Below are positions 541 to 25,448 of a DNA stretch of 37,319 bases, piece by piece; position 1 is the first letter of the stretch, and each line of letters starts with the position of its first letter. The DNA is from Chlorobiota bacterium (GTDB lineage Bacteria; Bacteroidota; Chlorobiia; Chlorobiales; Chlorobiaceae). A model generated the notes under the pieces. The model was given only the letters and a program-made list of their open reading frames with translations. It was not told the origin of the DNA and did no database searches. The stretch lies in NCBI GenBank assembly GCA_016866305.1, contig VGMX01000020.1:1-37319 (forward strand), given 5' to 3'. The translations under genes were made by a program, and so were the position numbers.

Positions 541-813
541 ATGAATATCTACATTGGCAATTTACCCTACTCCGTTACCGAAGACGATCTCCGTGATGTA
601 TTTTCCCAGTTCGGACAGGTCGACAGCGCTAACATCATCACCGACAAGTTTTCAGGCCGCTCGAAAGGGTTTGGGTTTGTTGACATGCCGAATGACAGCG
701 AAGCACGTGAAGCTATCGAATCCATGAACGACAAGGACCTCAAAGGCCGTACCATAAAGGTAAACGAAGCCCGGCCTCGCGAAGAACGCCCGGCAAGAAG
801 GGATCGCTACTGA
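541..813 (+). CDS. Single-RRM RNA-binding protein (cyanobacterial Rbp type)
   Basis: This 90-residue protein is one RNA recognition motif. RNP-2 (IYIGNL) lies at residues 3-8 and RNP-1 (KGFGFVDM) near residues 42-49. A short basic, arginine-rich tail ends RPARRDRY. Proteins of this size and layout are common in cyanobacteria, Bacteroidetes and green sulfur bacteria. They bind single-stranded RNA and are often induced by cold. I start at the ATG at 541 because it gives the canonical MNIYIGNLPY beginning; an upstream TTG in frame would add 21 hydrophobic residues foreign to the family. The gene is monocistronic, with a strong terminator right after it. The in vivo RNA targets cannot be read from sequence. 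Confidence 0.9.
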   Translation: MNIYIGNLPYSVTEDDLRDVFSQFGQVDSANIITDKFSGRSKGFGFVDMPNDSEAREAIESMNDKDLKGRTIKVNEARPREERPARRDRY

Positions 814-23111: not shown

Positions 23112-25223
23112 CTACCCGTATTTCTTCTTCATGCCCAGCTTGTCGATGCGCGAATAGAGCGTCTTGGGGTGCATCCCGAGCTGTTCGGCAGCGCCACCTG
23201 CTCCGCTGACCCTCCCTTTGGCGCGTTCGAGCGCATCGAGAATCAGCTCCCGCTCCCGCATGCGGCTATCCTCCTCGAATTCGTGCATGCTTCTCAGCGG
23301 CCTGATGCTGAGCCGGTCGCCTGAAGAGCTGTCACCGGAAAGGATGGAGGAAAAATCAAATGAAGGACCATCGGAAATGATCACGACCTGTTCGACAAGA
23401 TGGGCCAGTTCCCGGACATTGCCTTTCCACTGGCGCCCCTCGAGACGCAGCAGGTCGAGTTCCCGGAACGGGAGCTCTGGACGGCCGAACTCCCGGGCAT
23501 ACCGTGATGCGAAGTGTGCGGCAAGCAGGGGAATGTCCTCCCTGCGCTCCCGCAGCGGAGGAATGGCGAGAGGAAACACGTTGAGCCGGAAATAGAGATC
23601 CTCGCGGAACCGGCCTTCGGCAACTTCACGTTCAAGGTCACGGTTCGTGGCGGCAATCACCCGCACATCGACAGGAATCACGCGACTCCCGCCCAGCCGC
23701 TCCAGTTCGCGTTCCTGCAGCACCCGCAGGAGCTTTGCCTGCAGTTCCAGCGGCAGTTCGCCGATCTCGTCGAGGAAGATGGTGCCACCGGCTGCGAGTT
23801 CGAACTTGCCGATCCGCCGCTCCGTCGCACCCGTAAAGCTGCCCTTCTCGTGCCCGAACAGTTCGGACTCGATGAGCGCAGCAGGAAGCGCCGCACAGTT
23901 CACCCTCACCATCATCTTCTCCTTCCGCGAGGAAAGGTTATGGATGGCTCGCGCAAACAGCTCCTTGCCGGTACCGGTCTCCCCCTGGATCAGGACGGTG
24001 GCGTCGGTCGGGGCAACCTGGCTTGCCCTTCGCAGGGCGGCAGCAAGCGACGCGCTCTGGCCGATGATCTCCTCGAACTCGTGTGTTCCCTTGATCTCCT
24101 CGATCAGCCACGTTCTTTCGCCCTCCAGCCTTCGCCGCAGGTCATCGATCTCCTCGTAGGCAAGGTAGTTCTGCAGTGCAAGCGACAGCTGCGGCACCAC
24201 AAGGCCCACGGTCTGCAGGTCATTCTCGTCGAATGAACGGGAGGTACTGGAAATGATCAGACCGGCCCGGCTGCCCGGGGAGTCCCACAGTCCGGCGCTG
24301 ATGACCGAGCAGATTCCGAACTTTTCCCGCACGAGATCGACGAGGCGGTACTGTTGACACAACCGGAAGAAATCCTCGCCGGAGTAGCACCCGGGGTTGG
24401 TGATGAGCGAGAAACTCTCCCTTGCAATATCTCGAAAATCGGATACACCGAAATGGTCGTAGGAAAGCACGGGAGCAAACCCGCCCGATGGCTCCCGCAT
24501 GAAATTGTCGAAAACCCGGTAATCCCCGTCGCTGCCCATGACCCTGATACCGAGAAAGGTGCACGGCACCAGCCGGTCGATCTGCTCGCAGACGGCAAGC
24601 ATCATCCGGCTCCGGTCCCTGATGGTCAGCAGTGCGTTGTTGACGGCAAGCTGCATGGCGGTCTGCGCTTCACGCTGCCGCAGTTCCTCATATGCAAGCG
24701 CGTTGCTGACCGCGACCGCTATCGGCGATGAAAGGGTTGAAAGCAGTTCTTTTTCATCCTCAGACCACTCTTTCTCCTGCTTCGAGACGAAGTTGAGAAA
24801 GCCGATCACCTTGCCTCCGGAACGCAGCGGCGAAAGCACCACCTGCCGCATACCAAGCTTGTAGAGCATCCGGGGCACCGGAAAATCCGCCGGATAGCGA
24901 TCCATCTCTCCCTCGATGGATTCGACCGACACCGCCGTATCGCCAAGATGCGGCTCGATCCAGGAACCGGCCACCGGACGTTTTTTTCGCTGGACGGTCT
25001 CGGGAACGTCAAAACGCAGCATCTCGAAAAACACGTTGATGTAGCGCCGGTCGCGATCGAAGGTGATAATGACCGCCGAATCGAACTCGAAGACAAGGCG
25101 CAGCTTGTCGGTGACTGTCCGGAACAGTTCCTGGGGCTCGCGTATCGAACCGACGGCGTCGCTGATGTAGCGCATCAGCGAACTGGCTTCATGGATGGAC
25201 TCTGCCTGCATGGATGACATCAT
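23112..25223 (-). CDS. Sigma-54-dependent transcriptional activator with two GAF domains
   Basis: A 703-residue enhancer-binding protein. Residues 25-180 and 190-350 look like two GAF sensor domains. The AAA+ domain runs from about 385 to 615: Walker A GETGTGKE (414-421), sigma-54 contact loop GSFTGA (461-466, Ser in place of the usual Ala), Walker [11 protein letters not shown] (481-490) and [11 protein letters not shown] Fis-type HTH is at about 660-697 ([20 protein letters not shown]). There is no receiver domain, so the signal is probably a small molecule or redox state sensed by the GAFs. It is divergent from the efflux operon, whose promoter has a -24/-12 element. AGGA lies at good spacing for the second Met (25220). 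Confidence 0.93.
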
Positions 25224-25224
25224 G

Positions 25225-25243
25225 ATTCCTGAAAATCAGGAAT
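25225..25243. promoter_or_regulatory. Perfect 19-bp palindrome, candidate enhancer/operator for the sigma-54 activator
   Basis: ATTCCTGA and TCAGGAAT flank an AAA centre. It overlaps the ribosome site of the regulator gene and lies about 130 bp upstream of the -24/-12 promoter, the usual enhancer distance. It could serve both efflux activation and autoregulation. Confidence 0.6.
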
Positions 25244-25251
25244 ACAATTTA

Positions 25252-25263
25252 CAGAATATTCTG
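25252..25263. promoter_or_regulatory. Second palindrome next to the candidate enhancer
   Basis: CAGAATATTCTG is a perfect 12-bp palindrome, centred about 23-24 bp from the first one, so two activator dimers could bind near one another. Confidence 0.4.
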
Positions 25264-25362
25264 ATTATTCAAGAAACAGCAACAACAAACCGGCCATGAC
25301 CGTTCCGTGATAACCCCTTTCCCGAAAGGCATTTGCAGACACCTTGCCTGATTGTCATTTTC

Positions 25363-25379
25363 TGGCATATGAATTGCTT
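25363..25379 (+). promoter_or_regulatory. Sigma-54 (-24/-12) promoter of the efflux operon
   Basis: TGGCATATGAATTGCTT has GG at 25364-25365 and GC at 25376-25377, exactly ten bases apart. It matches the consensus TGGCAC-N5-TTGCW at all but one core position. Transcription would start near 25389, about 60 bases before the TolC-like start codon. The divergent neighbour encodes the sigma-54 activator. Confidence 0.75.
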
Positions 25380-25448
25380 ACTCCTGACACTACGACCCGG
25401 ACGGACTCTTCCGGCCAGGTTCACGGCAATCATTTCATAAACGAACCG

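Follow-up and report, generated by a model that had tools for sequence, protein, structure and literature searches.

The intergenic region that separates a sigma-54 activator gene from a divergent tolC-usp-emrA-emrB operon in the window (the whole stretch of 37,319 nucleotides of Chlorobiaceae DNA that was analyzed) is very probably a dedicated sigma-54 control region of this tripartite pump, driven by the adjacent GAF-GAF-AAA+-Fis activator. The promoter, the architecture of the activator, a pair of operator sites, the conservation of these elements and the co-inheritance of pump and activator can all be read from sequence. From this arrangement we infer that the activator binds these sites, that the operon depends on sigma-54 in vivo, and that it is induced by a pump substrate or a related stress.

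Promoter, activator and pump genes

The original prediction placed a -24/-12 element with GG-N10-GC at 25363-25379, and the letters are present where it put them: the stretch reads TGGCATATGAATTGCTT, with GG at 25364-25365, ten further bases, and GC at 25376-25377. Positions 25363-25377 match the sigma-54 consensus TGGCAY-N5-TTGC exactly, and this is the only zero-mismatch match in the window. A search of the activator/tolC intergenic region for a sigma-70-like promoter found none. In the organism's own genome, a pattern search returned 10 exact matches versus 6 for a reversed-pattern control, a weak signal, the pattern by itself being no commoner than chance genome-wide. We therefore consider this site functional because it is conserved in relatives (see below), and not because of genome-wide pattern counts.

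The genome carries a single rpoN gene and five clear sigma-54 activators. Several of the 10 matches fall inside genes, and the intergenic ones include sites upstream of nifH and of an Hsp20-like gene. The former (L195, contig C1:28546-28560) is a full-consensus promoter, TGGCACAGATATTGC, that precedes a nifH-like gene (MRKVAIYGKGGIGKST...) by ~90 bp, which is what one would expect in a diazotrophic green sulfur bacterium, and it serves as a positive control for the consensus. The latter (L204, contig C22:15860-15874) lies ~66 bp upstream of a small gene that looks Hsp20-like by eye, and is possibly another sigma-54 target. Given these two sites, the sigma-54 consensus is apparently in real use here.

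The gene on one side of the promoter had been read as a GAF-GAF-AAA+-Fis activator divergent from the pump genes, and this reading holds. Pfam identifies the first GAF domain (residues 30-172), the AAA+ domain (PF00158 Sigma54_activat, 2.1e-74) and the helix-turn-helix (HTH_8, 655-696). Pfam sees the first GAF alone and does not detect a second, which is supported by predicted structure: an AlphaFold2 model (46 homologs) contains two GAF-like folds (pLDDT 84), GAF1 matches PDB entry 3K2N (Z 25.0), and the GAF1-GAF2 pair can be aligned to the PDE5A/PDE2A tandem GAFs over ~320 residues (Z ~19). The protein thus combines the features of an enhancer-binding protein, namely an N-terminal sensor, a Sigma54_activat AAA+ domain with a GSFTGA loop, and a C-terminal Fis-type HTH. 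Among 81 activator homologs the GAFTGA loop reads GSFTGA in 77 and GAFTGA in 4, and this A-to-S variant is known to be functional from the activator LevR (PMC3162934). The same homologs conserve N-terminal residues including R28, D48, E90 and W313, as well as a recognition region, GRVSGxxGAA...KTL.

The sequence of 3K2N, a domain of a sigma-54-dependent regulator of Chlorobium tepidum TLS that covers residues 10-185 only and was deposited without a function, is found letter for letter in the C. tepidum locus (L171); the structure thus corresponds to GAF1 of the activator ortholog in that species. The -24/-12 element of that locus reads TGGCATGGAAATTGAT. This structural-genomics orphan therefore gains a candidate role and a target promoter.

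On the other side of the activator, the predicted order tolC-usp-emrA-emrB agrees with the open reading frames and with Pfam and NCBIfam matches (Table 1). The genes are separated by gaps of 1, -4 and -4 bp, which argues that they form a tight operon. The permease scores well above the cut-off of its family (TIGR00711, 408.7 versus 230.2 bits). Since the adaptor falls below that of TIGR00998 (221.7 bits, E 1.2e-65, versus 390.8) while its adaptor fold is clear from HlyD_D23 and HlyD_3, we describe it as EmrA-like rather than EmrA.

Table 1. Features of the sigma-54 control region and its flanking genes (positions in the window, or residues where stated)
Feature	Position	Strand	Remarks
Sigma-54 enhancer-binding activator, 703 aa	23112-25223	-	Pfam GAF, Sigma54_activat, HTH_8
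Activator domains (residues)	GAF1 ~30-180; GAF2 ~204-360; AAA+ 386-552; lid 558-625; Fis-type HTH 655-696		
Operator site 1, TTCCTGAAAATCAGGAA	25226-25242		Perfect inverted repeat; ~-155 from predicted start; TTC-N11-GAA conserved
Extra half-site ACAGAA	25251-25256		Abuts site 2; CAGAA at 25252-25256; conserved
Operator site 2, TTCTGATTATTCAAGAA	25259-25275		~-122 from predicted start; exactly 33 bp from site 1
Sigma-54 promoter, TGGCATATGAATTGCT	25363-25378	+	-24 TGGCAT / -12 TTGCT, GG-N10-GC
Predicted transcription start	25389	+	12 bases 3' of the C in the -12 GC; inferred from promoter position
TolC-type outer-membrane efflux protein, 435 aa	25449-26756	+	Pfam OEP 1.9e-61
Universal stress protein (UspA-type), 181 aa	26758-27303	+	Pfam Usp 1.8e-25; retained in most relatives
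EmrA-type periplasmic adaptor, 324 aa	27300-28274	+	Pfam HlyD_D23/HlyD_3
EmrB-type DHA2 major-facilitator permease, 532 aa	28271-29869	+	NCBIfam TIGR00711

Operator sites and conservation across the Chlorobiaceae

Two palindromes upstream of the promoter had been proposed as enhancers, and this proposal stood in part. The first, ATTCCTGAAAATCAGGAAT, spans 25225-25243 in the letters and contains operator site 1. The second, CAGAATATTCTG, is also present (25252-25263), but it is not a conserved dimer site; it combines the half-site CAGAA with the left arm of site 2, and the true second site lies at 25259-25275. There are thus two conserved inverted repeats upstream, both within the ~100-200 bp before the predicted start from which enhancer-binding proteins act, but their units are TTC-N11-GAA sites and not the palindromes originally listed. 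The right arm of site 2 is imperfect in the window (CAAGAA for TCAGAA).

We searched 86 Chlorobiaceae genomes, most of which have an activator ortholog (64-87% identical), and mapped neighboring genes by tblastn; the intergenic counts below refer to the 68 genomes in which activator and tolC share a contig, and relatedness among these genomes inflates them. The gene order is the activator divergent from tolC, followed by usp (absent in a few), emrA and emrB. A -24/-12 element scoring at least 12/14 (median 14) is found in 68/68 activator/tolC intergenic regions, compared with 3.4% of dinucleotide shuffles used as a control. Positions G2, G3, A5, T12, T13 and G14 are invariant. The strict GG-N10-GC form occurs in 54/68, and GG-N10-GT or GA in the other 14. 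Because the distance from promoter to tolC varies among relatives from 35 to 258 bp, the element is not pinned by adjacent coding sequence.

The operator pair is similarly persistent. The two 17-bp inverted repeats of the form TTC-N11-GAA are exactly 33 bp apart, or three helical turns, in 61/68 regions; six of the remaining seven are a single base off, and in the last (L159) site 1 is degenerate. The best forms of the operator are TTCTGA-N5-TCAGAA and TTCCTGA-N3-TCAGGAA. The half-site that precedes site 2 is conserved as well, reading A (85%), G (100%), A (100%) and A (98%) at +27 to +30 relative to site 1. The original prediction had asked whether related Chlorobi keep the promoter and palindromes, and had set their loss beforehand as evidence against it; no relative has lost the -24/-12 element, and the operator pair is retained in essentially all of them.

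A pattern search of the organism's own genome finds the strict 33-bp pair just once, which fits a local, single-target regulator. A loose single-site pattern was also tried as a way of defining a regulon and was rejected as too unspecific (111 matches at one mismatch), so the paired pattern was used in its place. Since site 1 adjoins the activator start codon in the window, 2 bp away, the activator probably represses its own gene too. At 25221-25230, the left arm of site 1, TTCCT, reads AGGAA on the activator strand, 2 and 5 bp before the first two ATGs, and may double as the activator's ribosome-binding site.

Site 2 and the promoter are separated by 52, 62-64, 74-75, 82-86 or 93-98 bp, with none between and one outlier at 185 bp, and successive groups lie roughly one helical turn apart. 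By sequence, the spacers form 49 clusters that are less than 70% similar to one another. In a vector-strength test on 48 cluster representatives, we observed a peak of 0.77 near 11 bp that was unmatched in 20,000 uniform draws. Because shared ancestry leaves fewer independent changes, we do not treat this as a formal test, and the movement of site 2 relative to the promoter in helical-turn steps is suggestive.

Co-inheritance and related loci

We searched for EmrB in 13 genomes whose activator was missing, partial or represented by a paralog only, and found it in 5, where in every case the end of the contig falls in the operon or interrupts the activator. These five apparent cases of a pump without an activator were rejected: four contigs stop within the region or shortly ahead of it, and in G042 the activator is truncated at the contig edge. 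Two genomes that are 99% complete (G040 and G076) are without EmrB and keep only a 57% activator paralog. Among Chlorobiaceae genomes in which the assembly reaches the activator, we found no case of the pump without it.

The arrangement also occurs beyond the family. In Hymenobacter frigidus (L043) and in three genomes from a single genus of this phylum (L234-L236), probably also Hymenobacter, an activator with 43-45% identity is encoded divergently from tolC-usp-emrA-emrB; the contig of H. frigidus breaks off within emrA. Judged by eye, the inverted repeats at these loci are again paired, ~31-32 bp apart. These loci have a perfect TTGGCACA-type -24 and a degenerate -12 (TTnGGT, TTGGTT), which makes sigma-54 use there less certain; the departure from TTGC is perhaps a lineage-specific sigma-54 preference, and rpoN is present in the L234-L236 genomes. 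In 394 genomes sampled from the phylum the module is otherwise rare, and this rarity, together with the shared gene order, suggests transfer between Chlorobiaceae and Hymenobacter-type genomes.

Paralogs of the activator within the Chlorobiaceae (L187, L190, L191) and a homolog from the same order (L237) have as neighbors an HlyD-type adaptor, an ABC-2-type exporter and TolC and/or Usp, and these loci too carry inverted repeats as well as promoters of the form TGGCA(C/T)...TTG. Paralogs beside ABC-2 exporters point to an activator subfamily tied to efflux pumps in general. It is plausible, as a tentative proposal that we would put at slightly less than even, that the activator founds an undescribed, efflux-devoted subfamily of sigma-54 activators in Chlorobiaceae and some other Bacteroidota, whose tandem GAFs sense the substrate of the pump itself (either a xenobiotic or some toxic phototroph metabolite) and switch on EmrAB- or ABC-type exporters along with the stress protein. 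At three further loci (L192, L193, L194), a paralogous activator 56-57% identical retains operator-like repeats and the -24/-12 element while the tolC frame is apparently broken or shortened; these are perhaps decaying efflux loci.

Mechanism, alternatives and known systems

We propose that a dimer or oligomer of the activator would sit on the two inverted repeats, three helical turns apart, and on the adjoining half-site. Its GAF domains may sense a small ligand or redox signal, upon which the ATPase ring would assemble and the activator would loop the DNA between operator and promoter. ATP-driven remodeling of the RNA polymerase-sigma-54 complex, held closed at the -24/-12 element, would then open the promoter and switch on tolC-usp-emrA-emrB. 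On this view the pump would stay off until its activator's GAF domains receive a signal, as the original prediction proposed.

Alternatively, the paired sites might mainly autorepress the activator gene, with the sigma-54 promoter of the pump driven chiefly by another activator. Site 1 is only 2 bp from the activator start codon, and the genome encodes four further sigma-54 activators. However, autoregulation alone does not require an operator-promoter distance that changes in helical-turn steps, and wherever the assembly extends far enough the pump comes with this activator, with the operator pair nowhere else in the genome; we consider this explanation very unlikely. The pairing of operator and activator is itself drawn from sequence, such that a different protein could bind the operator while the neighboring activator acts elsewhere. 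Yet operator and activator travel together in Chlorobiaceae, in Hymenobacter and in the paralogs beside other pumps, and the recognition region of the activator is conserved, which leaves this option with an even smaller probability. The last alternative takes the -24/-12 match for a chance occurrence of the consensus and gives the pump an ordinary promoter under a MarR/TetR-type repressor encoded elsewhere. The motif alone is about as frequent as its reversed control genome-wide, and EmrAB pumps are usually controlled by repressors. Conservation in 68/68 regions, with GG, A and TTG invariant, and the lack of any sigma-70-like promoter found in the intergenic region make this the least probable of the three, and scarcely credible.

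Control by the adjacent sigma-54 activator resembles known systems in its parts. NorR-norVW and FhlA-hyc of Proteobacteria likewise place a GAF sensor-AAA+-Fis HTH protein on sigma-54 promoters via upstream inverted repeats, and the NorR target is divergent, with three binding sites. FhlA and NorR are the best NCBIfam matches of the activator, although both are below the family cut-offs (FhlA PRK15429, 409.4 versus 830 bits; NorR PRK05022, 364.9 versus 476), and here the predicted target is a drug-efflux operon with two sites at 33 bp. The pump, as known from its genes, shares with E. coli EmrAB-TolC a DHA2 permease, an EmrA-like adaptor and a TolC-like outer-membrane channel, but has its own tolC and a universal stress protein within the operon. 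EmrAB pumps are normally under MarR/TetR-type repressors, and that of E. coli is under the MarR-family repressor EmrR/MprA, whereas positive sigma-54 control is predicted here.

Two surveys of sigma-54 regulons (Francke et al. 2011, PMC3162934; Geobacter RpoN regulon, PMC2725144) connect sigma-54 with transport and the cell exterior, and efflux, multidrug targets and Chlorobi are absent from the main text of both papers. In the literature searched, which was scant on subscription journals, we found no description of a sigma-54-controlled EmrAB pump, in line with the original suggestion that such control is unusual. Each part is of a known kind; the family-wide combination of sigma-54, a tandem-GAF activator and an EmrAB-type pump is the unusual element, and was not found in that literature.

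A sigma-54 promoter stays off unless an ATP-driven activator acts on it, so the predicted wiring, if true, would give the pump a tight all-or-none switch, where EmrAB pumps usually have leaky control by a repressor. The arrangement is retained throughout a family of phototrophs that has seen little work on regulation; one member, C. tepidum, is transformable. The series of helical-turn distances also amounts to an experiment of nature on how enhancer-binding proteins loop DNA. The outlier in that series is L178, where site 2 lies ~185 bp from the promoter, apparently because ~90 bp have been inserted in the spacer, and this locus may provide a natural test of how looping depends on distance.
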